Source: a virus. Taken from it: DNA of 22,703 nt. The notes under the pieces are model-generated. The model had not been told where the DNA came from and made no database searches. It saw only the letters and a program-made list of their open reading frames with translations. Made by a program: the position numbers and the translations under genes. Shown here one piece after another: positions 1 through 15,380 of this stretch (position 1 is its first letter; every line of letters begins with the position of its first letter). The stretch lies in IMG/VR virus record IMGVR_UViG_3300042154_002092, positions 1 through 22,703 of that record. One strand, written 5' to 3'.

Positions 1-127
1 GTGGGAATCTGTTCACTTTACTATTAAGATAAACTATAGTGTTATGACCAGTTTTAATCAACCAGTTGACATGACAGTCAAGTCTTTTGTCCCAGACTTT
101 ATAAATTCTTTGATATTTTGTTTTCAT
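1..127 (-). CDS. Hypothetical protein, 3' part cut by window edge
   Basis: An ATG at 125-127 on the minus strand opens a frame that runs without a stop to the left edge, giving 42 codons. It begins MKTKYQRIYK and is rich in basic and aromatic residues; no family is recognised. It lies in the direction of transcription of the neighbours, downstream of a hairpin (141-166). The rest of the gene lies outside the window, so it could be a chance open frame, but the orientation and absence of any competing frame make a real gene likely. Confidence 0.5.
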   Translation of the reverse strand, partial: MKTKYQRIYKVWDKRLDCHVNWLIKTGHNTIVYLNSKVNRFP

Positions 128-140
128 ATTAAAAAGAGGT

Positions 141-166
141 AAGGTTGGAAATGCTAAACCAACCTT
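141..166 (-). terminator. Hairpin, possible weak terminator
   Basis: A perfect 8-bp inverted repeat (AAGGTTGG at 141-148, CCAACCTT at 159-166) encloses a 10-nt loop. Read on the minus strand it is followed by ACCTCTTTTT, so the U-run starts a few bases after the stem. It sits between the membrane micro-ORF (213-293) and the partial gene at 1-127. It could end the operon transcript or be another RNA structure. The remaining stretch 167-212 shows nothing else I can name. Confidence 0.4.
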
Positions 167-212
167 CTATTGATCCTCCTAACTTAAACTAGAAAAAAGT
201 AAATAGCATTTT

Positions 213-293
213 TTAGTACTTGTCACCTTTAATTATAAATAAATATATGATACATATACCAATTACAATAAAAAAAATTCCTTTAGCTAACAT
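213..293 (-). CDS. 26-residue single-span membrane micro-protein
   Basis: An ATG at 291-293 shares one base with the TAA stop of the DUF932-like gene (TAATG), and the frame ends with TAA at 213-215. The 26-residue product is almost one hydrophobic helix (about residues 5-21, rich in Ile, Phe and Val) with a charged GDK tail. This predicts one transmembrane segment with no soluble domain. The stop/start coupling is the usual arrangement in this operon and is the main evidence that it is real. Function is unknown. Confidence 0.5.
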   Translation of the reverse strand: MLAKGIFFIVIGICIIYLFIIKGDKY

Positions 294-1195
294 TAGTCTG
301 CTAATATATATCTTTTTAAATCATCTTCATTAATTTCTTCAATATCATTTATATTTTTAATGCCAAAATCTATTAAAAATTCTTCTTCAGGAGGCATTGT
401 ATTAATTACATGAAAGTCAGAATTAATATTTTCAGAATAAGTTTTAATTCCTGCTGGTGTTAATAAATCAGCAACTATAAATTCATGAAACTTTCTGCTA
501 TCAGATAACCAAGTTCTTGGATGAGATTTTTTAAGAGCTGTAGTAACATGATTATAAAAGGTCCATGCATTTTCAGGATCTGAATTGTAATCAAAAGATG
601 GATGATCAATTTCAGATTTTACAGCAGATAATTGAGTAATATCTAAAATTTCTTTATCTATAAATAGTCTGCCTAACAATTCAGCTTGAGAACGTTTGAC
701 TAAAGGTGTATTTCTTAGAGAATCTCTATCTGCAAGAATTTTTTTGTAACGTTGTTCTGCATGAGTTATTTGATTCATTATTTGTAATTGAATATCACTA
801 AATGCAGAACCAGTATGTTTTCTTCCAAAATTCATAAGATCTCCATTGATCATTCCATTTGCACAAACAAATACATAAGCTCCAATAGCACATTGAAATC
901 TAGCTGATTTATCATAAGAGTTTGTCCAGGCAAACATCATTCCCATTTCTGATTCATTAGCTATTTGAGGATCTATACTTGTAGATTCAAGATGGTAAAT
1001 ACCTTGAACAACTTTTCCATCTTGGTTGCTTCTATATATTTCTTTTTTAATTATAAAACCATGATTAGTCAGTAATGTATGTGTAGTATCTATTACATCT
1101 TTGTGAGATACTACAGTATAAGATTGACTATAGTTAGGTAATGGCGCATTTTCAAGATAACTTCTTGTAGTTTCGGTTGGTTTTTTGTGTCCCAT
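293..1195 (-). CDS. DUF932-like phage/plasmid protein
   Basis: The 300-residue product resembles the DUF932 family found in phages and plasmids. Visible features are an N-terminal VVSHKDVID segment (about 28-36), a central glutamate- and methionine-rich stretch, and the motif VCANGM (110-115) followed by RKHTGSAF (125-132), which matches the family's 'CsNG...rkHt' signature as I recall it. The C-terminal third is less conserved, with an acidic end. The biochemical role of DUF932 proteins is not settled. It lies downstream of the polymerase in the same transcript, 24 bases after the 85-residue gene, and couples to a membrane micro-ORF by TAATG. Family assignment is from motif memory only. Confidence 0.6.
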   Translation of the reverse strand: MGHKKPTETTRSYLENAPLPNYSQSYTVVSHKDVIDTTHTLLTNHGFIIKKEIYRSNQDGKVVQGIYHLESTSIDPQIANESEMGMMFAWTNSYDKSARFQCAIGAYVFVCANGMINGDLMNFGRKHTGSAFSDIQLQIMNQITHAEQRYKKILADRDSLRNTPLVKRSQAELLGRLFIDKEILDITQLSAVKSEIDHPSFDYNSDPENAWTFYNHVTTALKKSHPRTWLSDSRKFHEFIVADLLTPAGIKTYSENINSDFHVINTMPPEEEFLIDFGIKNINDIEEINEDDLKRYILAD

Positions 1196-1219
1196 AAATA
1201 ATTTTAGTTTAATAAATTT

Positions 1220-1477
1220 TTAAAGTTTAAGATAAGGTTCATTCATACATTCTTCAAGTGAAGAGTTTGACATTTTTGCCAATAGAATAAGTTTTGCTGT
1301 AATATGTCCTATAGAAGTTTTAATTAAATCTTCTTCTCCATAGGCAGAGCTTGTATATAGGATTTTAGCATCCTCTTGAATTTTAATAACTAATTTAGCA
1401 CGGGTCATAGTTTCTAATATCTCCGTGCTTTTAGTTGCATGTTCTATAATTGTTTCTAATTCAAAGAAATCTTTCAT
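1220..1477 (-). CDS. Hypothetical 85-residue protein
   Basis: A small, mostly helical and acidic protein (begins MKDFFELETI) with no recognised motif. Its ATG overlaps the TGA stop of DNA polymerase in an ATGA, so it is probably translated by termination-reinitiation after the polymerase and made in comparable amounts. No membrane segment or cysteine cluster is seen. A polymerase accessory role would be guesswork based on position alone. Confidence 0.75.
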   Translation of the reverse strand: MKDFFELETIIEHATKSTEILETMTRAKLVIKIQEDAKILYTSSAYGEEDLIKTSIGHITAKLILLAKMSNSSLEECMNEPYLKL

Positions 1478-3465
1478 AATAAAGGTAGTTGTGTTGATGG
1501 TTTTTGAATAATATTATCAATCTCTTGTTCAATTGTTGTCATATAATAGTTTATATCTACATCATATTCTTCCCATTTTGGTTTGATTATCATTTTATTA
1601 TAAATAGTTTGTAACCATTTGCCAGCTTCAAGTTGAATCTCTCGGCTGTCTGTTTTATTAACTTTGACAATTTTAATACCCCTTTTAGAAATATAATATC
1701 TATTAATTTTTTGAAGAGGTTCTTCATGATAAACTCCGTCTTTAATTGACCGGGCCATTTGTTGCCAATCACCTTTTGTTTTAGCACCAATACAGTAATC
1801 TAAAATGTTTTTATTTGTTTTTAGATAGTTATATGGCAATACATTATGTACAAAGTACTGGTAAATGGCTTTTGGAATAACTAATTTAGACTTATTCTTA
1901 TGGAGAGGTAACTCATGGAAGTCAAATCTACCTTTCATTTTAGCAGGAGCATAAAAGAATTTAGGACCTTCAACTTTAAACAAGTAATGTGGATGTGAAG
2001 CATTAACTTCTCTCCAGGTTGTAATATCTACTTCTTTAAAATTGTTAAGAGCTATGTAGTTATTTACATCAGCAAGAATCATCTTTTGATATTCATCATG
2101 TTCTAACTGAAGGTTTGTTATTTTTTCCCACTCAGCACAAATCTCTAGATATTTTTCTTTGTGTTTTCTAGGGATTCTAGTTTCAATACCATCTGTATTT
2201 TGCATTAAAGCTACAGCATCTGGAATGTTCTCCATAATCATTTCATAAAGCATCATCAAACTTAACTGACCATTAACTGTGATTCTCATTGTAAACTCTG
2301 GGTCATAAAAAAAACTATTAACTTCATTACTTAATCCATATGTACTATTTAATATAATTTTAAATACATAATTCATCGGATCTTTTTTTGGAATAATTTT
2401 TCTTTGGTCAAAGAACCATTCATATTGTTTACAAAATACTTCTTTTGGAAAGTGTGCAGGTGACCATTGATTTCTAATAGCTAAATTTGGGTAAAAAGAA
2501 GTTACATCTGAAGTCATAATTACATAATCATCATCAGATTTATATACACCAGCTTTACGGGCTCCATGTACACCACCTAAACCAAAAGATGTTTCAACAC
2601 CTTTGTATGTTATTTTATGAGCAAAAGTTCCTTTTAGTTCATCAGCTTTAACAGTCATTGATTTAAACTTGGTAAGCAAACCTTTAAACTCTTCAGATTC
2701 AAACTTAATGTAAGGAAGCATGATATCATTCAACTTAATCAAACTTCTATAAGTTTTCATTTTCTTTAAATCCTTTTTGTTAATTTTTAGTTCCTGAGAT
2801 AAGTAGTAAGCAAATATTTCTTTACTAATTCTTGGTTCTGAAGCTGAGTATAAGTCTATATTATAAGTATTACTCAATTCTTTTCTTAATTTAATCTGAG
2901 ATACAGAACGTTTAAATACTTCTTTTGTAGATCTAATATCATTCAAACAGTATTCTATAATTGTATCAATTTGTTCTAATGTAGTAATCTCAGTAGTATG
3001 ATGAATAGGCATTTCTAAAATATTTTCCCAATCCATTCCATATTGTATCCATTTAAGACTAGAACGTTTGGCTGGGTTATCCCAATGATTCATTTTAAAT
3101 AAATCAATTTGTTGTATTTCCATGTTCCATGGAGCATAGTCTTGCCATTCATTAGTATCTTTTTTATGAATACATTTATTGGCATATATATAAATTATTT
3201 TACTAATATCACAACCATCTAAGTTTTCCCATAAGATATAGTTATCTAAAATATATTGTGTTATTTGCCCATCAAAAGCTAAACCATTATAAGAAATATG
3301 CCATTCTTTGTTGGTTTTATTATAATGTAAAAACTTTATAAATTCTTTAAAGTCATTACGTAAATTGTGAACTACAAATGTCTTTGATTCATTTGTTTTA
3401 TAGTCCTCAAAACAAGCAACAAAACAGTTGCTCAATGTTTCAAAATCATGTACCCAGTTGTTCAT
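1474..3465 (-). CDS. Family B DNA polymerase with 3'-5' exonuclease
   Basis: A replicative phage DNA polymerase of family B, 663 residues from the chosen ATG. The proofreading domain has Exo I (D7-x-E9 in HDFETL), Exo II (N60 with F64-D65) and Exo III (Y172-x3-D176). The polymerase domain has motif A (D320...Y325-P), motif B (K369...N373-S-T-Y376-G) and motif C, which reads NTDG at 423-426. The first Asp of the usual DTD is therefore Asn, while D425 remains. A TTG fifteen bases upstream (3480) would extend the frame, but it falls in the A/T run of the preceding terminator, so the ATG at 3463-3465 is preferred. The size is close to protein-primed or small phage polymerases, but I see no terminal-protein gene. 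It works with the primase, helicase and SSB of this window. Confidence 0.93.
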   Translation of the reverse strand: MNNWVHDFETLSNCFVACFEDYKTNESKTFVVHNLRNDFKEFIKFLHYNKTNKEWHISYNGLAFDGQITQYILDNYILWENLDGCDISKIIYIYANKCIHKKDTNEWQDYAPWNMEIQQIDLFKMNHWDNPAKRSSLKWIQYGMDWENILEMPIHHTTEITTLEQIDTIIEYCLNDIRSTKEVFKRSVSQIKLRKELSNTYNIDLYSASEPRISKEIFAYYLSQELKINKKDLKKMKTYRSLIKLNDIMLPYIKFESEEFKGLLTKFKSMTVKADELKGTFAHKITYKGVETSFGLGGVHGARKAGVYKSDDDYVIMTSDVTSFYPNLAIRNQWSPAHFPKEVFCKQYEWFFDQRKIIPKKDPMNYVFKIILNSTYGLSNEVNSFFYDPEFTMRITVNGQLSLMMLYEMIMENIPDAVALMQNTDGIETRIPRKHKEKYLEICAEWEKITNLQLEHDEYQKMILADVNNYIALNNFKEVDITTWREVNASHPHYLFKVEGPKFFYAPAKMKGRFDFHELPLHKNKSKLVIPKAIYQYFVHNVLPYNYLKTNKNILDYCIGAKTKGDWQQMARSIKDGVYHEEPLQKINRYYISKRGIKIVKVNKTDSREIQLEAGKWLQTIYNKMIIKPKWEEYDVDINYYMTTIEQEIDNIIQKPSTQLPLL

Positions 3466-3478
3466 AAAAATTTTAAGC

Positions 3479-3507
3479 AAAAAAAAGGGGAATGTTAATT
3501 CCCCCTT
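3479..3507 (-). terminator. Rho-independent terminator after the 3526 gene
   Basis: On the minus strand the sequence reads AAGGGGGAA-TTAACA-TTCCCC followed by a run of eight T. Stem arms are 3487-3492 and 3499-3504, and the U-run is 3479-3486. It lies between the 140-residue gene and DNA polymerase, so it should make the polymerase mRNA less abundant than that of its upstream neighbour. Confidence 0.85.
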
Positions 3508-3525
3508 GTAAAATATTTTTAATAG

Positions 3526-3948
3526 TTAAGGTGCTATAATTAAAGGTTGTTTTGTTTCAACTTTAGTTGTATCAACTAAAAAAGATTTAAAATCAAAACT
3601 TGAAGCATTTATTGCAAACAAATTAATAAACAGTTCAATGTCAGAATGTTCAGTAAGGTAAAACTCATTGAAAACTCTAATAGACACACGTTGTTCTTTA
3701 ACAACTTTTCCAGTTTGAGCATTTGGTACTCTTAATTTTTGAGGTTCTCCATCTTCAGTAAGTCTTGGGACCATGTGAAAAACTTCTTTTTCAGTTTTAC
3801 TAATTAAAACTAAAACCCCACTTGATGGGTCAAATAAACATTCTGCGTATGGTGAGTCTGTGCTCACAGGAATTAAAGAAAAAGATTTGGCATTTCTGAA
3901 TGCTGAATTAACTAACATCATGTTTCCGCCGATTGGTTGGTTTGTCAT
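3526..3948 (-). CDS. Hypothetical conserved phage protein, 140 aa
   Basis: A 140-residue soluble protein beginning MTNQPIGGNM with a beta-rich middle (LFDPSSGVLVLIS, FHMVPRL) and no recognised catalytic motif. Proteins of this look are, from memory, recurrent in phages of Bacteroidota, but I cannot name a function. It overlaps the upstream gene by ATGA, and a TACCTTTG element 18 bases before its ATG could give it a separate promoter. It is followed by a strong intrinsic terminator, one of only three clear ones in the window; the others follow SSB and the AAA+ ATPase. That suggests it is made in large amounts, as expected for a structural or binding protein rather than an enzyme. Confidence 0.8.
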   Translation of the reverse strand: MTNQPIGGNMMLVNSAFRNAKSFSLIPVSTDSPYAECLFDPSSGVLVLISKTEKEVFHMVPRLTEDGEPQKLRVPNAQTGKVVKEQRVSIRVFNEFYLTEHSDIELFINLFAINASSFDFKSFLVDTTKVETKQPLIIAP

Positions 3949-4532
3949 ATTGTATTTTGTGAGGTCAAAGGTATAGAATTTGTTTTTGATAAATCATATT
4001 TTTTATAAAAATTTGTGTCAAAGGTTTCTTTAATTAAATCCGGTTTGTCACATAATTCATGATTTTCTAAAATAATATCTAAAGATACCTCAAGTTCTTC
4101 TGAATATAATTTATGATATTTATCTGGATGTAAATATGTATTTATATGATTGGCTATAACTCCTGCATTTCCAAAAAAGTTAAGTATAATGTTTTTAGTT
4201 TTTACATCAAATTTTGAATAGTGGCCTTCTTTAAAATGTTCAACATCATTTTTATATTTTTGATAATTAAAAATATACAGATGATGTTTATTATCTAAAT
4301 TATAATATTTTTCAAATAAAGGATGGCTAAATAATAAATCTTTTTCAAAAAATGTAAACTTATCGTTTCTTTCTGCAACATATAAACACAAAAATTTTGC
4401 ATCAGACATAGAGTATTTTGGATTCCAGCAAATAAAACTTTCTACTGGAACATATAAAAGTCCTTTTCTAAACTGAAGTAAAGGATAAAGAAAAACCTTA
4501 CTCTTCTGAAAATATTGTGAATATACAGACAT
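3945..4532 (-). CDS. Hypothetical protein, 195 aa
   Basis: A 195-residue protein rich in aromatic and lysine residues, starting MSVYSQYFQK. It has an N-terminal hydrophobic/aromatic part (FLYPLLQF, YVPVESFICW), and the C-terminal half is charged. No catalytic motif, zinc site or clear membrane span is seen. It sits between the RecB/Cas4-like exonuclease (one-base gap) and the 140-residue gene (ATGA overlap), so it belongs to the same transcript. Function not recognised. Confidence 0.75.
   Translation of the reverse strand: MSVYSQYFQKSKVFLYPLLQFRKGLLYVPVESFICWNPKYSMSDAKFLCLYVAERNDKFTFFEKDLLFSHPLFEKYYNLDNKHHLYIFNYQKYKNDVEHFKEGHYSKFDVKTKNIILNFFGNAGVIANHINTYLHPDKYHKLYSEELEVSLDIILENHELCDKPDLIKETFDTNFYKKYDLSKTNSIPLTSQNTI
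3966..3973 (-). promoter_or_regulatory. Possible Bacteroidota -7 element (TACCTTTG)
   Basis: TACCTTTG on the minus strand matches TAnnTTTG and ends 17 bases before the ATG at 3948, a sensible distance. No convincing TTG -33 box is seen upstream, and the element lies inside the end of the preceding coding region. In AT-rich DNA such octamers occur by chance. Confidence 0.3.
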
Positions 4533-4533
4533 T

Positions 4534-5553
4534 TTACAAAGTTATTATATTTGTTAAATAGTGAAACGGTAAACTATAATCTTTGTTTATATAATGATAC
4601 TCAGCTTGATTAAGAGTATCTAAAAGTCTTTCTCCCCATTGCATCATTGTTTCATCTGAAACACTAAATACATAAACTTGGTTGTATTTATCAATTACTA
4701 CAAACTTAAACACAATATTATATGTTTGTTCTTCTGATGTTAGATTTGATAATACAAGTTTATAATACATAGCAGCTTGAAGCCAGTAATTGTAACGTTC
4801 AACACTTTCCGCAAATTGAGTAATTGTAGATGATGTAGTTTTTAAATCACATATTACTACACTTTTAGTTTCAGAATTTACTTTGTAATAATCTAAAATA
4901 CCTTTTATGTCAAATGGTTTATTTTCTAAAGCTGTTGTAAGTAATTTTTCAGCATAACTTTGAACAGGATCTAATGGAAAATCAGTTTGAATATTTTCAA
5001 ATAATTCCTGAACATCTTTATGATCTTTTAAAATCTCAACTTGGGCTTTACATCTTTCTAACATCTCATTATCTACAACATCTACAGAAGAATTATTTAT
5101 AAATTCCCAATAGACTTGATTGTCATCTGTTTGAATTTTGTTGAGTCTTTTTTGGTTTCCCGTTTCACCTGTTTTTTTATCATCTACAAAAGCCTGATAT
5201 AAATCAGCAGTTTTTAATGCACTTAGGATTGCAGTTTTTAATTCAGGATTATTAATCCTGATATCTTTTTCTTTTGTCAAATCTTTAAGCAGATTCAGAA
5301 CAGATTTAACAGAATCCGGAGGCACTTTGCCCGGTACAATATTAAACTTTGAAGTTAGTTGTTTAGGTTCAAACAGTAAACAATGGATAAGCTTCCCTTC
5401 AATGAGGTGCTTACCTAATTTCTCTTCTCTATTGAGAAGAATATAATCTTTATAAAATAAAGATGGTGCATATAATAGTTTACTCAGGGATGAATAACTA
5501 AAACTAAATTTTTTAGAGTAAAACTCTTTTTCTTTTGCTAAATCTGTATACAT
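4534..5553 (-). CDS. PD-(D/E)XK exonuclease, RecB/Cas4/ExoVIII-like
   Basis: A 339-residue nuclease of the PD-(D/E)XK superfamily. Motifs in order: S-x-S-x-L near 19-25 followed by the EGKLIHCLLFEP region (52-63, with H57), catalytic D221 in KGILDYY, D236-L-K238 in VVICDLKTT, and Q259-x3-Y263 in YWLQAAMYY. This order (H, D, D/E-x-K, Q-x3-Y) is typical of RecB/Cas4 and the phage ExoVIII/DUF3799-type exonucleases. The likely role is double-strand end resection for annealing-type recombination with the window's Sak4-like ATPase and SSB. There is no visible four-cysteine iron-sulfur cluster, unlike true Cas4. Its start overlaps the end of the upstream gene by 16 bases. Confidence 0.82.
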   Translation of the reverse strand: MYTDLAKEKEFYSKKFSFSYSSLSKLLYAPSLFYKDYILLNREEKLGKHLIEGKLIHCLLFEPKQLTSKFNIVPGKVPPDSVKSVLNLLKDLTKEKDIRINNPELKTAILSALKTADLYQAFVDDKKTGETGNQKRLNKIQTDDNQVYWEFINNSSVDVVDNEMLERCKAQVEILKDHKDVQELFENIQTDFPLDPVQSYAEKLLTTALENKPFDIKGILDYYKVNSETKSVVICDLKTTSSTITQFAESVERYNYWLQAAMYYKLVLSNLTSEEQTYNIVFKFVVIDKYNQVYVFSVSDETMMQWGERLLDTLNQAEYHYINKDYSLPFHYLTNIITL

Positions 5554-6686
5554 TCTTTTTTTATTATTGAATTTTTATATTTGCCCACTAAGTAAATAGA
5601 TTCTAGATCTATTGCGAACACATTGTTGTTAAGACCAATGGTGCTTTTAATTACAGAATCATACATCTTTTGAATTGTTTTTTTTACAATAAAGTCTGTT
5701 AATTTATTTTCAACTTCTAATAATTTTATGTATTTATCATAAGGCCACTGATTGCTGCCATTTTTACTACCAGAAAATTTCTCAAGTCTTTTGCGTAATG
5801 TTTTTATATTAATGTTATTCCAATTATTACAATCTTTAAAATAATCATAATACCAAAAGAATAAATAACTAACAATATCAAAAGATTTTTCAATATTACA
5901 ATTACTTAGCATTTCTAAAACTAAAGTTCTGTTGTCTTTGTCTTTACTTTGAATCATTTTAGATACCTGATCAAATTGATCTTCATCTATTACTGCTAAA
6001 TCTTCTGAGATAATCTTATTGATTTCAACATCTTTTACAATCAATGCTGTTGTATTACGCAATTGATCATACAAAGCTACATTACCATCTCTGATAACCA
6101 TATCTCTATTACCATCATAATCATATTCTGATACTTTAGTGGCAATATCATCTGCTACAGGTGATGTGTATCTGTAGTCTTTAACAACCTTGATGCATAT
6201 GTAAGCTTCTTTTTCTACTATAGATAAAAATTCTTTGCATTTATCTAATCCTGATTCAGTTAACTGATCATTTTGTTTTAGCATATTAAATACTTCAAAC
6301 ATTTGAGCATAAGTTATTGATTCAGTCCAATCAAGTGTAAGTAGATTAATAATTAATTTTTCTGATACAATATGAATATCTGCTAACTCTGCATCTCTAA
6401 TGATTTTTACATTAAACTTTGTTTTTAGCAAATCTAATTTTTGTCTAGGTAATTCTAAATTAGGATACCTGTATATTTTTTTATCTTGCAAATCAATTGC
6501 TTTATCTGAAGTAATTATATTTAGTAGAGCAAGTTCTTTTTCATTAGGATAATAACTTTTAGATCTTCCAAAATAATAACCATCTTCTTTTAAACTAAAA
6601 GACCCAATACCAAGTTTTTCCTTTCCGTTTAACCAGGTTGAATGTTCAGCTGAAACAGTTATGTTTAATTTATAATGTTTTTTCAT
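5538..6686 (-). CDS. Tandem paralogue A, unknown function
   Basis: A 382-residue protein, first of three adjacent genes that look related. It contains a segment at about 80-110 of the form 'P-RxKLxLLK...D-x-ELADIHIVSEK', a central variable part, and at about 228-300 the block FDQVSKMIQSKDKDN...LEMLSNCNIEKSFDI. Both blocks recur in the next two genes, and the second also in the 119-residue gene at 12254. The first block looks like a small alpha/beta fold ending in 'AD-hydrophobic-I', somewhat like BRCT; the second is helical. No catalytic residues are evident. Four bases separate it from the next gene upstream. Confidence 0.8.
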   Translation of the reverse strand: MKKHYKLNITVSAEHSTWLNGKEKLGIGSFSLKEDGYYFGRSKSYYPNEKELALLNIITSDKAIDLQDKKIYRYPNLELPRQKLDLLKTKFNVKIIRDAELADIHIVSEKLIINLLTLDWTESITYAQMFEVFNMLKQNDQLTESGLDKCKEFLSIVEKEAYICIKVVKDYRYTSPVADDIATKVSEYDYDGNRDMVIRDGNVALYDQLRNTTALIVKDVEINKIISEDLAVIDEDQFDQVSKMIQSKDKDNRTLVLEMLSNCNIEKSFDIVSYLFFWYYDYFKDCNNWNNINIKTLRKRLEKFSGSKNGSNQWPYDKYIKLLEVENKLTDFIVKKTIQKMYDSVIKSTIGLNNNVFAIDLESIYLVGKYKNSIIKKECIQI

Positions 6687-6690
6687 TATT

Positions 6691-7710
6691 TTATTTGTTA
6701 TTTTTATTATTATTAAATTTTATTAAAGATGTTTTGATTACACAGTTGGGTTTTGAATTAGGTCTAAATAAAGTTTTTTCTAACAAAAGTTTTGCTAATT
6801 CATTTGCCGCAAATTCTGTAAAACATTTTTTTGTTTGTAGTAAATTTTTAATGCTGTAAAAAGTAGTTATGTCATCTTTTATAAGTGTTACACATACATC
6901 TTTCATTGCAATTCTAAAACTTTTACTGTTTACACTTTTCCAATTCTTTAAAGCTTTTAAATTTACTATATGTTTTGTTAAAAGTAGAGTCAATACATCA
7001 TAAGATTTTTTGTAATTTGAATTACACATAATCTCTAAAGCTAGATTAGCATTATCCGTATCCTTACTGTTTAACATTCCGGATAGTCTTTTATAATCAG
7101 CTTTAGTTAGTATAATTGATTCTTCAGATAATAAATTTAGAAACTCTATATCAGATACTTTTGTACGGTTATTTATAGCATCATAAAACTGGATGTGACC
7201 ATTTGGAATATATGTTATTCTTTCTATACTTGGTGTATTTTTAACATAAACTTTTAAAGTATTATCTATAGCTACCATTATTGGGTTAAATATAAACATA
7301 TCATCTGTAGGAGAAAGAATTGTATCACTAGAAAGATTTTTTAAACCAGATTTAGTTTCAATCTCAGTTAATACATTTATTAGTTCTTTATAATTATATG
7401 CCTTTCTATAAGCTTTAAAAAGCATGCGGTTTAATACATTTGAATTTCCTACAACAACATCTGCTTTTTCAATATCATTTGTGAATGATATACCAAATTT
7501 TTTACATGCATTTTCTTTTTTAAGTTGAGGAATATGTATAGATGAAGCTACAAAGATTGTTTTGTTTTTTATTATTTTTGTTATAGATTTATTTGAATTT
7601 AATACAGTCCACTCCATATAATTATAATCTTCACGTTTTCCTAAATCATATATAGTACATTTAAAACCCCCATTACAATGCTGAATACTTGCTTGAATTA
7701 CTTTTGTCAT
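6691..7710 (-). CDS. Tandem paralogue B, unknown function
   Basis: A 339-residue protein sharing two blocks with its neighbours. One lies at about 53-90 (IPQLKKENACKKFGISF then NDIEKADVVVGNS) and one at about 198-270 (ILTKADYKRLSGMLNSKDTDN, then LALEIMCNSNYKKSYDVLTLL). The second block is the clearest match to paralogue A and to the 119-residue gene. The C-terminus is asparagine- and lysine-rich. Its ATG overlaps the stop of paralogue C by ATGA. Function unknown; the tandem arrangement indicates duplication followed by strong divergence. Confidence 0.8.
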   Translation of the reverse strand: MTKVIQASIQHCNGGFKCTIYDLGKREDYNYMEWTVLNSNKSITKIIKNKTIFVASSIHIPQLKKENACKKFGISFTNDIEKADVVVGNSNVLNRMLFKAYRKAYNYKELINVLTEIETKSGLKNLSSDTILSPTDDMFIFNPIMVAIDNTLKVYVKNTPSIERITYIPNGHIQFYDAINNRTKVSDIEFLNLLSEESIILTKADYKRLSGMLNSKDTDNANLALEIMCNSNYKKSYDVLTLLLTKHIVNLKALKNWKSVNSKSFRIAMKDVCVTLIKDDITTFYSIKNLLQTKKCFTEFAANELAKLLLEKTLFRPNSKPNCVIKTSLIKFNNNKNNK

Positions 7711-8747
7711 AGATATTGTTCATAATCAGGATGAATTTCAACTTTAAATTTATAGATTTCTCTATTATCAATATTGATATCTTTTCTAGCAAATTCTTCA
7801 AGATATAAAAAACTTTCTTTGTCAAGTTCTTCATTTTCATGAAGATGCTGAATAAATCTACCAGCTATTTTATTATATTGATAATAATCAAATCTTTTAA
7901 GCCAATCTTGCACATCTTTTATTCTGTTAAACTTATAAAGTTTATTTTTAATTAGATTATACAAAGTCCATAATAAATGTTTTTTTGAATATGTATCAAT
8001 AGTTGGTAAAATCATTGCTGCTAAAGCTATATCATCATCTGAACTAGAGTTTACTAATCTTTCAATGTCTCTAATAGTTTCTATGGTAATTGGTTGTATA
8101 TTGTTTGAACTTTCAATAACAGTTAATAAATCAACTACATCTAATGTTCCATTTTGTACCATCATTGCAATATTTAAAGCCATACCTGTTAATAACATAG
8201 TATTGTACATTTTTTTATTTTCCATTTGAAAGTATCTATTATGTAAGATTTCTTTTCTAATTCTATCATCAAGAATTACAGGTAAATTATTTTCATCAAT
8301 CCACAATTGAACATTAGAATGATGTGTATTAGTATTTATAATTACTTGTTTAAGAGAACAATCAGCAATTAAAGCTGTACTATTAATTACTTCTAGTTGA
8401 AGAAATCTTTGTTTAACTTTATCATGAGTTATAATAAAATCAGCTTCTTCATAGTCATTTGTCAAAACAATACCTTGTTCTTTTAAAGCATATTTAACTC
8501 TAGGTATAGTTGTTGTAGAACCAGGTAATAAAAAACCTTTTTTTTTACTTTTAAAACTTGTTGAATCTAAGTTTGAAGTAGATAATGCACTAAGTACATT
8601 AGTATTAACAACATCATATTCATCTGTTGTAAGCACTTTTATTGTATCACCTTGAGCTAATCTTAATCCAACATATGTTGGGTGAGTTATTCCAAAGTAA
8701 TCTAATACGTGTTGATCATAATTTTGGTATACGGATTTGTTTGCCAT
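7707..8747 (-). CDS. Tandem paralogue C, unknown function
   Basis: A 346-residue protein, first of the three to be transcribed. The shared N-terminal block is at about 70-110 (KGFLLPGSTTTIPRVKYAL, then NDYEEADFIITHDKV); its 'G..L.G....P......L...G......EADFIIT' pattern is the most BRCT-like of the three. The shared helical block is at about 219-290 (IRDIERLVNSSSDDD, then IALAAMILP). No enzyme motif is seen. It begins just after the terminator that follows the AAA+ ATPase, so it depends on read-through or an unseen promoter. Confidence 0.8.
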   Translation of the reverse strand: MANKSVYQNYDQHVLDYFGITHPTYVGLRLAQGDTIKVLTTDEYDVVNTNVLSALSTSNLDSTSFKSKKKGFLLPGSTTTIPRVKYALKEQGIVLTNDYEEADFIITHDKVKQRFLQLEVINSTALIADCSLKQVIINTNTHHSNVQLWIDENNLPVILDDRIRKEILHNRYFQMENKKMYNTMLLTGMALNIAMMVQNGTLDVVDLLTVIESSNNIQPITIETIRDIERLVNSSSDDDIALAAMILPTIDTYSKKHLLWTLYNLIKNKLYKFNRIKDVQDWLKRFDYYQYNKIAGRFIQHLHENEELDKESFLYLEEFARKDINIDNREIYKFKVEIHPDYEQYL

Positions 8748-8792: not shown

Positions 8793-9542
8793 TTAGCTAA
8801 TTGTCATTTTGATTACATCAACATTCATCATTAGTTTGTTGAATTTTTGCTTATTACCATTGAAGATAGTTCTTACAATTAGATATTTTAAATCTGTTGT
8901 AAAATAATCTTGAGTACACAAAGCAATTAATCTATTTGTTATTTTATCTGTAATTGTATTTTCTTGAGAATATACAACTGCAAAGTTTGCCAATCTGGTT
9001 GCAAGAGTTGATGCAATATCTGCTCTATAGGAATCATCATCACCAATACAACCTTTTAATTGTTTCAATACTTGTGTTTCATTATCACCTGTTAACAATT
9101 CTTTTGGAGTAATTAATTTATCCAATTTGTTGTTAATAAACATGGTAAACATTGAAGCAAATGTATCTCCAACTGAACCTTCACCAATCATCTGAATTAA
9201 CAATAAACTCTTTTCAAAATCAGGAAGACTTGATATTGAGTTAAAGAATGTTGTTATAGATCTTGAATTGGTTTCTGTTGTTACAAGTTCAGGGTGAAGC
9301 AAAAGAAAGTTAATACATCTTGTATCAATTCCTGCTTCTTCAGCCCATCTAGCCCATACATTTACATCAAACTTTAGGTTTACTGAAATGTATCTTGTCT
9401 TCTGAGCATTATCCACAGAGGTAACATTATAGTCACCATTATCCGGATTAGCACTCAATAGAATATGCCAATCTTTAGGAAGAGTCCATGAAATATAAGT
9501 TTGTCTGTCTATTAATTCCATACAGGCTTGGATGAATCTCGG
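8793..9542 (-). CDS. MoxR-like AAA+ ATPase, exon 2 (residues 174-422)
   Basis: Second exon of the intron-split AAA+ ATPase: 249 codons and a TAA. It begins with CCG AGA TTC (PRFIQACMELIDRQ), which continues the Walker B helix of exon 1. It then carries the sensor 1 region (HILLSANPDNGDYNV) and a DNAQKTRYI segment that fits the sensor 2/arginine-finger side, followed by a helical C-terminal domain. The ATG at 9543-9545 that seems to start this frame consists of the last intron bases, so it is not a true start. The joined protein (422 aa) is probably the motor partner of the VWA protein encoded just upstream. A terminator follows. Confidence 0.88.
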   Translation of the reverse strand, partial: PRFIQACMELIDRQTYISWTLPKDWHILLSANPDNGDYNVTSVDNAQKTRYISVNLKFDVNVWARWAEEAGIDTRCINFLLLHPELVTTETNSRSITTFFNSISSLPDFEKSLLLIQMIGEGSVGDTFASMFTMFINNKLDKLITPKELLTGDNETQVLKQLKGCIGDDDSYRADIASTLATRLANFAVVYSQENTITDKITNRLIALCTQDYFTTDLKYLIVRTIFNGNKQKFNKLMMNVDVIKMTIS

Positions 9543-9780
9543 CATTTGTTATCTCTAAAGTTCTTTATCTTTAGATTCTACAGTTTTTATTAGATTATCT
9601 GTAGTTCAGACTATATCATCATCTACAATGTAGATGTCCTGCGCTCTTGGTGTTTTACTGTCTGTTCTAGACTCCATACACTAGTCGTTGCACCTTTCTG
9701 ATATTCCTATCAGACTTGGCTCAGGATTGTCCATCTCTGGAGTTTCCCTGAGTTCACAGGATTTTTGGGGGACACGAGAT
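9543..9780 (-). ncRNA. Group IA ribozyme core
   Basis: All catalytic helices can be drawn. P3 is UCCUGUG (9755-9761) with CGCAGGA (9637-9643). P4 is CUCAGG (9747-9752) with CCUGAG (9720-9725), the latter inside the Q-like element AAUCCUGAGCCAAG. P6a is UCUGAUA with UAUCAGA (9697-9714) and a GGAA loop. P7 is GACUA (9682-9686) with UAGUC (9609-9613), within R-like GCAACGACUA and S-like GAUAUAGUCUG. P8 is CAUCUAC/GUAGAUG (9620-9636). P9 is CUACAG/CUGUAG (9578-9604), and P9.1 is UCUAAAG/CUUUAGA (9554-9575). Between P7 and P3 there are extra stems GUCU/AGAC and GUGU/ACAC (P7.2, P7.1), the hallmark of group IA, the class of the T4 and SPO1 introns. Confidence 0.95.
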
Positions 9781-9785
9781 TTTTT

Positions 9786-10526
9786 TTATTCAAACTTCCA
9801 TTTGAATCCACCAGCAATTTTGTGTTTACGTGCTGCTCTATGTACATTGGATATATTAAGCGTTCTTTCTGCAAGTTTTACAGAAGACCATTCTTTAATT
9901 TTGATATATCCAGTATTATCATATTGAACAACTGATTTAACTTGGTAGTTTTTAGTTGGAAGTTCTATTTGGTCATGTTTACTTGTTGACCACAAGTGTT
10001 TTTTAGCTGATTTGGCTCTAGAGTTTAAAACTGCACATATCCCTGAAGGATCTGTTTTAAAAGAACTGGCTGCTTCTGTTATAGATGGGAATGTTTTTAT
10101 ATATTTTCCATCTAAACTATACATATGCACTTCTTGTTTATTGTGAATTTCTAAGCCATTAGCATAAAGTTTTTTCATACTAATACTAAGTCTTTGTTTA
10201 TAAGTATCATCTCTTGTTAATTTGATAGGGTCAAGTATATGATTCATATAAGGAGTTAAAGATTCTATGTAAAATTGTTCTCTTTCAAGTAATAAATCTG
10301 GGTTGCATTTTTCTAAAACTTTAAACTCTATTGTTTGGTATTTATTCCAACAATTTTGCATAGTTCTATTATGATGTTTTCCTGATTTAAGTGCCCACAA
10401 ATGATGTTTCAATCTGTGACCAATTGATGCAGAACTTCCTACATAATTCTTAGTATTAATTTGAATGTAATAGATTCCTGGAACATTCAAGTATTCTTGT
10501 AAATTTTCTATTGTTATATCTTTCAT
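9786..10526 (-). CDS. GIY-YIG homing endonuclease, intron-encoded
   Basis: A 246-residue homing endonuclease that would cut intronless copies of the AAA+ gene to spread the intron. The N-terminal GIY-YIG domain has GIY at 17-19, YVG at 28-30, R38 in GHRLKHH and E83 in EREQFY as the likely metal-binding glutamate. The C-terminal half holds two IENR1/NUMOD1-like DNA-binding repeats: about 133-180 (VHMYSLDGKYIKTFPSITEA...HLWS) and 199-246 (VVQYDNTGYI...GGFKWKF). The ATG at 10524-10526 is preferred over an in-frame GTG at 10541, because a promoter -7 box lies between them. The frame ends five bases before the P10 guide segment, so the gene fills the P1 loop without touching the core. Confidence 0.93.
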   Translation of the reverse strand: MKDITIENLQEYLNVPGIYYIQINTKNYVGSSASIGHRLKHHLWALKSGKHHNRTMQNCWNKYQTIEFKVLEKCNPDLLLEREQFYIESLTPYMNHILDPIKLTRDDTYKQRLSISMKKLYANGLEIHNKQEVHMYSLDGKYIKTFPSITEAASSFKTDPSGICAVLNSRAKSAKKHLWSTSKHDQIELPTKNYQVKSVVQYDNTGYIKIKEWSSVKLAERTLNISNVHRAARKHKIAGGFKWKFE

Positions 10527-10530
10527 AATA

Positions 10531-10561
10531 CAAAGATACACAATTTATTCATTTTAGCAAA
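10531..10561 (-). promoter_or_regulatory. Bacteroidota-type promoter for the homing endonuclease
   Basis: On the minus strand, TTTG (10558-10561) is followed after 19 nt by TATCTTTG (10531-10538). This matches the -33 TTTG / -7 TAnnTTTG consensus of Bacteroidota sigma factors. The ATG begins only four bases after the -7 box, so the transcript would start at or next to the start codon (leaderless or nearly so). It lets the endonuclease be made independently of the unspliced host-gene message. Confidence 0.72.
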
Positions 10562-10583
10562 AAGTAGCTTGAATAATTTGTTT

Positions 10584-11102
10584 ATCCGCCCTGTTCCAGT
10601 CATCTAATAATAAAATACCACCATCTTTTTTATCTGCAATCCACTCAGGTGGACAATAGGACATCCTATTTTTACCGGTCATTTTGTATCCATTTTTTAG
10701 ATACTCACCAACGGCAAGTTCATCTACCCATGCACCAATTTTCTTTGTAGTTGCATTATCAATGTTTGCAATCTCACCTGATGCATTCATTCTATGTGCA
10801 GTGGTTATATTTAAATCCATACTAGTAGGTATAACTTTGGTTTCTTTATACATTTGAAATTGTCTCACTGGGAAACCTACTAAATCCCCTAATTCTTCTA
10901 TCTGAGATAAATTCAATTTGATAAAGTTTAGATTATTTGCTTTTGCAATATCTATAATTGAAGAGGTTTTACCAATTCCGGATTCACCCATAACTTCAAT
11001 AGCCACAGGTAGTTTACCTTGACTTTGTAAAAATCTGTTGTTTGTAATAATGTGTCCTACAAACCCTTTTAATTCGTCTATATTTAAATTTACTTTTGCC
11101 AT
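10584..11102 (-). CDS. MoxR-like AAA+ ATPase, exon 1 (residues 1-173)
   Basis: First exon of the split ATPase. It has Walker A at 39-47 (GESGIGKTS), a MoxR-like 'LGDLVGFP' segment at 71-78, and Walker B at 162-173 (GGILLLDDWNRAD). The exon ends at the GAT codon for D173; unspliced RNA would add nine codons and stop at TAA, giving a dead 182-residue fragment. The gene starts five bases after the VWA gene, a pairing typical of MoxR/VWA chaperone systems, in which the ATPase ring remodels a target bound by the VWA protein. Phages use such pairs for unknown targets. The full protein (422 aa) has both halves of a complete AAA+ module only after splicing. Confidence 0.92.
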
Positions 11103-11106
11103 TTCT

Positions 11107-12261
11107 TTAATTAAGTTTTATTACTTTACCTGGAAGTTCTGTCATTGTTGATGTGCTACTTAGGCACCACAATGTATTTTTGGGACAATTTTCAGGAGCT
11201 GAACATTCTCCATCTGTGAAATATATTAAGGCTGTATAATAACCTTTTTCATTATAGTGATCAATAACCGGCTGAAAGCTCGTGCCCCCACGGCCAAGAA
11301 CAGTGAAATCCTTTTTAGGATTATATGGTTCAACTGGATATAATCTTGCATCACACTGGGCAATTGTAATCATGTGACCAGTTTTATGCATATGATGAAG
11401 CTCATTTAAGAATTCTTTAAGTTCATTTGTAGATACAGAACCTGATGTGTCTAATCCTACTAATATATGATTTTTGAATTTAATCTTTAAACCCGGGTTC
11501 TCAGTATATCTGCGGTTATACTTTCTCCTCATTTTCTTTGTATAGAGAATATTGGAGTTACCAATAAACCTTCTCAAATAACTTCTCCAATCAAATTTAG
11601 GTGGTTCAACATGTCTTAATCTAGCAATTATTTCACCAAACTCTCCGGGAATTGTGCCTCTTCTTTTTTCAGTTTGTTCTGCAACTTCTTTAAGTTGAAA
11701 TTCAATTTGTTTGGTTATTAACTTTTTATCTGTCTCAGACAAATCATCAAATTCATCCCAAGTAGAATGTTCAGATGGTCCACCGCTCATGTCATTTAAC
11801 AATGAATCTAAAGATGGAGATGTTCCATCTTCTTTGGCCTGTTGAAGTAAATCATAATAAACTTTTGTTCCTGCTTTTACTGGAATATTTAATTCTGGAA
11901 ATGTATGAGGATGTATCCAAGTTAATTCAGTTTGTTGCTTAGGTATATATTGATTAATTTCTAAATCAGCAGCAATGTTAAATAACTTTTTATCAGGAAA
12001 ACTATCCCGCATTGTTAAGTGTCCAAAAGATACGTGAAGAATTTCGTGCTTGATAAGACCAACTTTTACATGTTCATTAAGAGTTGCAAAAAAATCAGGA
12101 TTAATTGCTAATTGGATATTTATTCCATGTTTACTTACACCTGCAGTTGGTATATCTTTTCTATAAGCTTTATTTAAGCTAACTAAAAAAAGCCCATAAA
12201 AGGGCTCTTCAAGTATTAATGTTTTAGAAGTCCTAGAGACTTCATTGATTATATCAATCAT
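11107..12261 (-). CDS. Putative metallopeptidase-VWA protein (DUF2201-like)
   Basis: A 384-residue two-domain protein. The N-terminal domain has the zinc-protease-like motif HEILH at 72-76 followed by H81, as in the DUF2201 putative metallopeptidase domain. The C-terminal part is a von Willebrand A-type domain with a MIDAS motif D271-T-S273-G-S275, GRGGTSF at 323-329 and YFTDGE at 347-352. Proteins of this type usually work with a MoxR-family AAA+ ATPase, and the gene directly downstream (five bases) is one. Its start overlaps the preceding gene by 8 nt. A terminator-like hairpin lies within codons 18-26. Target and role in the phage are unknown; metal-dependent binding via MIDAS is expected, while peptidase activity is unproven. 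Confidence 0.85.
   Translation of the reverse strand: MIDIINEVSRTSKTLILEEPFYGLFLVSLNKAYRKDIPTAGVSKHGINIQLAINPDFFATLNEHVKVGLIKHEILHVSFGHLTMRDSFPDKKLFNIAADLEINQYIPKQQTELTWIHPHTFPELNIPVKAGTKVYYDLLQQAKEDGTSPSLDSLLNDMSGGPSEHSTWDEFDDLSETDKKLITKQIEFQLKEVAEQTEKRRGTIPGEFGEIIARLRHVEPPKFDWRSYLRRFIGNSNILYTKKMRRKYNRRYTENPGLKIKFKNHILVGLDTSGSVSTNELKEFLNELHHMHKTGHMITIAQCDARLYPVEPYNPKKDFTVLGRGGTSFQPVIDHYNEKGYYTALIYFTDGECSAPENCPKNTLWCLSSTSTMTELPGKVIKLN
12185..12206 (-). terminator. Terminator-like hairpin inside the VWA coding region
   Basis: The minus strand reads AGCCC-TTTTAT-GGGCT followed by seven T (stem 12191-12195 with 12202-12206, T-run from 12191 down to 12185). This has the form of an intrinsic terminator, yet it sits about 55 bases inside the VWA gene. 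It may act as an attenuator that is masked by translating ribosomes, or it may be a coincidence of the codons for EEPFYGLFL. Confidence 0.5.
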
Positions 12262-14696: not shown

Positions 14697-15380
14697 TTAC
14701 TTTTCATACTCTAATATACACTCTCTTACATATTGTAAGTCATTTGGAATAAATGGACTTGGAAACATATCTATTGGTGATTTACAAGTGTTCTCACCAT
14801 TATTTTGTGTTTCAAATCCATACTCAAGAGTTTTATCTTCTTTTTTAACAACTCTTCCAAAAAGAACAATTGAAAACAGACCTTCCAAAGTTAAGACGTT
14901 GTCAATTAATTTCCCAATTGTTTTTGCTTTAATTCTTCTCACACCATTCATATCTGTTGATTCTTCTGGGTGTGTCATGAAAAATATAAGCAAATCATCT
15001 CTGAAATCTTTAGGAGCTTTTGCAACTTGAGCTAGTGCAGAACCTATCTGCGTGAATTTGTCATAACCTTTCTCTTGGGATCTGTCAAAATACTCAAAAG
15101 AACTCATAAATTGCCAATCATCTACCACTAAGGTTTTAATGTGTAGCATGTTATCACTAACATGTTTCATTGCTTTGAGTACTCCTGCAGAACTTGACGC
15201 TGAAGTCATGTTTCCTGTAGGGTTTTCTTTAGTAATTTGAGTGTAACTGTTTTTCCACCCCTTAAAGGGTAGAGGTTTATTACCAATGTTGATAATAAAC
15301 GTTTCTTTAGGATCCAGGGTCTTTATTGCTGTGGACTTCCCTGAACCAGAATCTGCGATTATAAGTGTTGATATTGACAT
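14697..15380 (-). CDS. Sak4-like RecA-fold ATPase
   Basis: A 227-residue single-domain P-loop ATPase. Walker A is at 9-16 (ADSGSGKS) close to the N-terminus, and Walker B is at 83-89 (TLVVDDW). Then come FFMTHPEES and a C-terminal part without extra domains. Size and layout match the phage Sak4 / AAA_24 proteins that promote single-strand annealing with a cognate SSB. The SSB gene follows directly downstream (18 bases), and a RecB/Cas4-like exonuclease and RusA are in the same transcript, making a full recombination set. A role as a helicase loader cannot be excluded from sequence alone. Confidence 0.8.
   Translation of the reverse strand: MSISTLIIADSGSGKSTAIKTLDPKETFIINIGNKPLPFKGWKNSYTQITKENPTGNMTSASSSAGVLKAMKHVSDNMLHIKTLVVDDWQFMSSFEYFDRSQEKGYDKFTQIGSALAQVAKAPKDFRDDLLIFFMTHPEESTDMNGVRRIKAKTIGKLIDNVLTLEGLFSIVLFGRVVKKEDKTLEYGFETQNNGENTCKSPIDMFPSPFIPNDLQYVRECILEYEK

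Follow-up and report, generated by a model that had tools for sequence, protein, structure and literature searches.

The group I introns of phage T4 (td with its endonuclease I-TevI, nrdB and nrdD; PMC2988022) reside in DNA metabolism genes and combine a GIY-YIG endonuclease under its own promoter with co-conversion of the flanking exons. Insertion beside a conserved Asp, endonuclease promoters and exon co-conversion are known in other phages as well (PMC11620839, PMC2988022, PMC3984707). Group I introns are also reported from core replication genes of crAss-like phages, among them ATP_43b, an AAA-domain gene in the Delta group (PMC7886860), and in Bastillevirinae, GIY-YIG/NUMOD and HNH endonucleases occupy phage group I introns, the PHROG 314 endonuclease family being shared with the present element (PMC11878797). 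In PhiPA3, the intron endonuclease gp210 has been shown experimentally to act as a weapon against co-infecting intronless phages (PMC11620839). Here we analysed IMG/VR record IMGVR_UViG_3300042154_002092 over its full 22,703 nucleotides (the window), in which a previous inspection of the letters and open reading frames (the sequence-only reading) had proposed that a group I intron splits a MoxR-type AAA+ ATPase gene. Our comparative analysis confirms that observation and, with minor corrections, supports its interpretation. The locus shares the GIY-YIG endonuclease, promoter and co-conversion traits with T4, yet the interrupted gene encodes an AAA+ ATPase, the phage appears to be of Bacteroidota type, and the promoter resembles a host promoter, not a phage late one. 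As in PhiPA3, intron and endonuclease lie by a conserved Asp of an essential phage gene and intronless relatives would be the targets; there, however, an HNH endonuclease sits in an RNA polymerase gene and its function was tested experimentally. The genes hit in Bastillevirinae are instead those of DNA polymerase, ribonucleotide reductase, thymidylate synthase and terminase (PMC11878797). The crAss-like phages, with introns in core replication genes including an AAA+ gene, probably belong to the same broad phage assemblage as the present one; ATP_43b is a possible homologue of this ATPase, and in the window the AAA_24/Sak4-like gene (14697-15380) is separate from the ATPase gene. A literature search of open-licence papers turned up no report of an intron within a MoxR-like gene of a phage. 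Elements of this kind are familiar, but neither the host gene nor the site that is hit again and again seems to have been described before.

The ORF list contains two minus-strand frames, 11102-10554 and 9545-8793, which look like separate proteins and which the sequence-only reading took for one gene. Joining 11102..10584 to 9542..8793 yields a single 422-residue frame of 173 + 249 codons. Exon 1 (10584..11102, minus strand; AAA+ ATPase codons 1-173) ends in ...DDWNRAD and exon 2 (8793..9542, minus strand; codons 174-422 plus stop) starts with PRFIQACMEL, as anticipated; both are defined by the ORFs, the joined translation and 80 uninterrupted homologues. The predicted spliced junction in DNA is ...GGGCGGAT-CCGAGATTC (codons 173/174). 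The letters also bear out an exon ending in U (10584) and an intron ending in G (9543), and the ATG that opens the second frame is indeed a false start, its G being the final intron base (9543). The insertion had been placed exactly after Walker B; it is near this motif, but the splice point lies five codons 3' of the DD pair (ILLLDD-WNRAD/P), not immediately after it.

Since tblastn of the joined ATPase against 50,697 phage records matched nothing at 1e-5, homologues were taken from IMG/VR, where the joined protein has about 600 or more relatives. In the 80 best matches, residues 1-421 align in one piece at 75-81% identity, and all 80 cross the junction gap-free, reading DDWNR(A/S)D-[V/T/I/M]-RFIQA. 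When the joined protein of contig L103, a less closely related carrier, served as query, another 78 genes without interruption came up, and several of these share 97-98% identity with the spliced product of L103. Altogether, 158 uninterrupted homologues read DDWNRAD-xRFIQA past codon 173/174, with up to 98% nucleotide identity to an intron-interrupted allele. We looked for homologues whose halves are naturally separate, and all 158 are single continuous genes, in line with the restored frame and with one interrupted gene.

The Rfam group I intron model RF00028 matches the window at 9822-9589 (minus strand) with 79.9 bits (cut-off 50 bits; E 3.9e-19) over its whole length, and a search of the entire 22,703-base record gave no second group I match. 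The intron comprises 1041 nt (9543..10583, minus strand); its 5' splice site lies at U(10584)/A(10583) and its 3' splice site at G(9543)/C(9542), both placed by the Rfam match, the P1 and P10 pairings and same-site introns. In P1, the exon strand GGCGGAU (10584..10590, minus strand) faces the internal guide sequence GUCCCCC (9767..9773, minus strand), with the U at the splice site paired to G 9773. The P10 intron strand AAUCUCG (9775..9781, minus strand) lies just upstream of the guide and forms 7 bp with CGAGAUU of exon 2 (9541-9535). The P3 to P7 core region (9637..9761, minus strand) contains P3 (9761-9755/9643-9637), P4 (9752-9747/9725-9720), the P7 5' strand (9686-9682) and, between P7 and P3, the helices P7.1 and P7.2; the P7 3' strand (9613-9609), P9 and P9.2 (9574-9569/9560-9555) follow within 9555..9613 (minus strand). 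Both regions are assigned from the Rfam match and pair counts.

Alignment of 11 same-site introns shows that these helices are maintained. Standard pairs make up 96.2% of 684 pair cells, and both sides have changed in 32 of 63 core pairs, against a shuffle mean of 16.3 (0/500 as high) and 2-7 in slid controls. Covariation extends over P3, P4, P5, P6a, P7.1, P7.2, P9 and P9.2; P7.1 and P7.2 are both 100% paired with compensatory changes and point to an IA-like subgroup. The U-G pair at the P1 5' splice site is present in 11/11 introns, the last base is G in all, and the guide covaries with exon position -7 (U-A/G-C). In ten other distinct codon-173 introns, P10 helices with the intron's own exon 2 span 6-10 bp (mean 7.8 bp), compared with 5.1 bp with other carriers' exons; examples are GUAAGAUUU/AAAUCUUAU in L083 and UACGUUUU/AAAACGUA in L084. 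P1 and P10 set the splice junctions where the sequence-only reading had put them. The P1 of the window contains one C-C mismatch at -5, mid-helix, common to L081-L083 and L090/L091, whereas P1 of the L084/L103 type pairs 7/7; the window intron may therefore splice less well than that type. P1 is extended by the intron 5' segment UUAUUCAAGCU (10566..10576, minus strand), which pairs over 11 bp, including G-U, with AGUUUGAAUAA (9796-9786), the final endonuclease codons plus stop. A P1 extension general to the carriers was dropped: own pairs average 6.4 bp and mismatched ones 5.6, so the extension is claimed for the window and L082 only.

An ORF within the intron, 10526-9786, is absent from the sequence-only reading. 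Located in the P1 loop (9786..10526, minus strand), it is intact, encodes 246 aa and matches GIY-YIG (28.5 bits, cut-off 22.6) and NUMOD1 (31 bits, cut-off 22.8) in Pfam as well as PHROG 314 (homing endonuclease); TIGR01453 (group I intron endonuclease) scores 54.6 bits, just under its cut-off of 56.05. From these domains we infer homing endonuclease activity. Its placement in this loop, ahead of the core, differs from what is known of the T4 introns. A promoter-like site of Bacteroidota type, TTTG-N19-TATCTTTG (10531..10561, minus strand), is found 4 nt before the endonuclease ATG, its spacing being that of the Bacteroidota consensus. About two chance occurrences of the strict motif are expected per window of such composition, so the motif alone proves nothing, and its weight lies in the fixed position before the ATG of diverged endonuclease ORFs. 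A -7-like box, TAnnTTT[G/A], stands immediately ahead of the ATG in the majority of the 20 distinct endonuclease ORFs carried by introns of this gene: 13 have it at a distance of 11-13 nt, and L082 and L084 join them should their true start be a downstream ATG. At the corresponding place it precedes 0 of the 29 ordinary window genes. The endonuclease transcript presumably starts at the ATG, giving a leaderless message.

Introns at codon 173 are found in at least about 15 other IMG/VR contigs. One of them (L081, same contig as L160) is 99.7% identical to the window; L082, L083 and L084 also have the intron, with endonucleases 67, 66 and 52% identical, and L090/L091 carry a 352-nt mini-intron with the last 23 endonuclease codons only. 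The 11-bp pairing of the ORF tail with the intron 5' end may explain the survival of exactly that tail in the mini-introns. A DNA core-pattern scan added, among the matches listed, L103, L109, L113, L145, L147, L179, L186, L202 and L210. Many codon-173 introns place a stop codon immediately 3' of exon 1, and an AUG in frame with exon 2 closes the majority of site-173 introns and several at site 73, a false start for gene finders. Gene finders would split the ATPase gene; the finding mends its annotation in a large lineage of uncultured phages from the environment, whose members number in the hundreds. In L147, the codon-173 intron (1523 nt) contains a further endonuclease ORF of LAGLIDADG-like type, set within the P4 region and possibly breaking P4; a separate TTTG-N19-TATATTTG box serves this ORF, 4 nt ahead of an ATG.

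Closely related alleles with and without the intron record how it may have arrived. The exons of intron-bearing L083 and intronless L006 show 22 differences in 1269 nucleotides; 8 of these fall no more than 30 nt from the insertion (p=3e-6), and there are zero differences between -246 and -9 or between +51 and +246 (exclusive). The codons at the site read CGT GCT GAC/ACA in L006 and AGG GCG GAT/GTA in L083; the upstream changes are synonymous and downstream one residue is altered. Differences also cluster near the insertion in L103 versus L215 (p=3.5e-5), L179 versus L225 (p=1.3e-5) and L147 versus L225 (p=1.3e-3), all these p-values assuming independent differences. Overall, such allele pairs are 95-98% identical (98.3%, 96%, 95.5%), with the differences clustered within ~30 nt of the insertion. 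We read this clustering as the footprint of homing with exon co-conversion. The flanks could alternatively have diverged by selection for P1 and P10 after insertion; some of the changed positions fall outside both helices.

The hexamer GCGGAT is present in 12/12 distinct site-173 carriers examined versus 5/158 intronless alleles, and 6/7 positions of the window guide pair with the window's own exon, against 4/7 for 78 of the 80 intronless alleles compared. The intron thus seems to import the exon letters it needs and appears to bring its own exon flanks. The proposition that homing introns favour conserved target sites holds at the level of the protein motif; the DNA of the site lacks such conservation, GCGGAT occurring in just 5 of the 158 intronless alleles. 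On the ATPase tree the intron state requires seven changes, which is, on this phylogeny, a pattern of patchy gain and loss. Among nine relatives' records searched for group I introns, that of L091 alone has any, and no group I intron was found anywhere in the long (108-120 kb) intronless relatives searched. One intronless allele, L028, bears the intron-type codons AGG GCG GAT GTA CGT, possibly a scar of intron loss; its nearest relative is 190 differences away, too distant to judge such a loss.

The ATPase gene is a hot spot for insertion: related introns occupy at least four more positions in it, at codons 43, 73, 171 and 172. Insertions within codon 43, inside Walker A, are found in L116, L145, L186 and L195 and, by their 3' ends, in L182, L226 and L232; those after codon 73, in the LGD/LVG motif, in L170, L173, L174, L188 and L205; and those in the DDWNRAD motif after codon 172 in L174 and after codon 171 in L182. 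At least four contigs carry two introns at once. The endonucleases group by insertion site (SH-aLRT 97 for the site 173 clade and 98 for the site 73 clade), indicating that each lineage mostly homes to its own site. Protein conservation is high at all these sites, but the top window includes site 73 only; site 43 ranks at the 69th percentile and sites 171-173 between the 63rd and the 81st. We therefore rejected the idea that the insertion sites are unusually conserved in the protein, and a preference for conserved sites is only modestly supported. A role beyond selfish spread is unlikely in our estimate, be it the ATPase as a preferred battlefield, on which intron endonucleases would knock out this gene in co-infecting phages, or splicing that depends on GTP as a means to tune an energy-using phage ATPase. 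Core-pattern matches show similar introns splitting DnaB and Sak4-like genes in related phages (L095, L114 and others).

Taken together, the evidence identifies the element, with high confidence, as a mobile, IA-like group I intron that bears P7.1 and P7.2. The ATPase transcript would fold, exogenous GTP would attack after U10584, and the freed exon would then attack after G9543, so that the ligated mRNA encodes the full ATPase. The endonuclease would be expressed from its own host-type promoter, on a transcript that lacks exon 1 and could not splice. During co-infection it would cut intronless ATPase alleles near codon 173, and repair on intron-bearing genome copies would bring in the intron together with up to ~30 nt of flanking exon. 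Such short conversion would install the codons AGG-GCG-GAT (or CGT-GCG-GAT) and a matching 3' exon, so that P1 and P10 could pair in the new gene with the protein barely altered. After fixation the endonuclease could be lost, leaving a mini-intron as in L090/L091. The C-C mismatch in P1 would also suit a dead relic, in which the group I look is kept but splicing is lost, leaving the phage with two half-genes or no ATPase. We consider this very improbable, because exons and endonuclease are all open and conserved, core pairing is maintained by compensatory changes across the 11 introns, the identical mismatch persists in several separate contigs, and an ATPase ending before its later motifs is not expected to work. 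Barely credible, to our mind, is a split ATPase whose separately made halves reassemble, even though the in-frame AUG that ends most site-173 introns could start exon 2: in many introns a stop directly follows exon 1, whereas the homologues are uninterrupted, and each P10 matches its own exon 2, a match needed by splicing alone.

To a domesticated intron, one whose GTP-dependent splicing or endonuclease would benefit the phage, for instance by attacking intronless phages in the same cell, we assign a low but appreciable probability. In its favour, the endonuclease reading frame is unbroken and has a promoter-like site to itself, intronless relatives are abundant as targets, and gp210 of PhiPA3 offers a precedent (PMC11620839); patchy presence, endonuclease loss in L090/L091 and the homing footprints, however, fit a selfish element. 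Domestication is compatible with the mobile-intron explanation, not exclusive of it. Within that mobile-intron explanation, the natural evidence for how the intron spreads is, as far as allele comparisons go, unusually clear, comprising natural before/after pairs, an endonuclease-less mini-intron and related introns at five sites in one gene. Co-conversion length, guide-exon matching and site switching thereby become testable outside the T4 and Bacillus models.

The assignment of the interrupted protein was examined separately. Pfam gave no match to the joined ATPase at E 0.01. Across 36 family members AAA_5 is matched by all, weakly (best E 0.00033), AAA also weakly, and AAA_3 (MoxR) in 16/36, weakly and below the cut-off (best E 0.0033). 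Profile comparison with solved sequences returned midasin as best, and a fold search placed NorQ-NorD chains first (E 5e-8; target-normalised TM ~0.5-0.6, model pLDDT 70.8). Directly upstream of the ATPase gene lies a VWA/DUF2201 gene (11107..12261, minus strand; DUF2201_N 62.1 bits, DUF2201 40.7 bits), that is, the adjacent VWA partner typical of MoxR-like ATPases. The AAA+ assignment holds; "MoxR-type" applies in the broad sense (AAA_5/midasin/NorQ with a VWA neighbour) but not as strict AAA_3 membership, and "MoxR-like AAA+ with a VWA partner" is a fair description. The VWA/DUF2201 gene is tagged "HNH endonuclease" in PHROG 1314 and several phage records, which looks like a misannotation.

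The window record is without terminase, portal and capsid genes. The TerL of a 118-kb relative (L005 contig) has its best matches in crAss-like phages at ~25-27% identity, which together with the promoter type suggests a Bacteroidota host. Finally, L160 (positions 1-8046; contig 3300042526_000246) is 99.7-100% identical to the window over 7.2 kb and carries an intron-like insert of ~840 nt with an HNH-like ORF in the Sak4-like gene, at window 15064-15067. In the window this gene is intact (14697-15380), and the codon beside the L160 insert changes from GGT to GGG.
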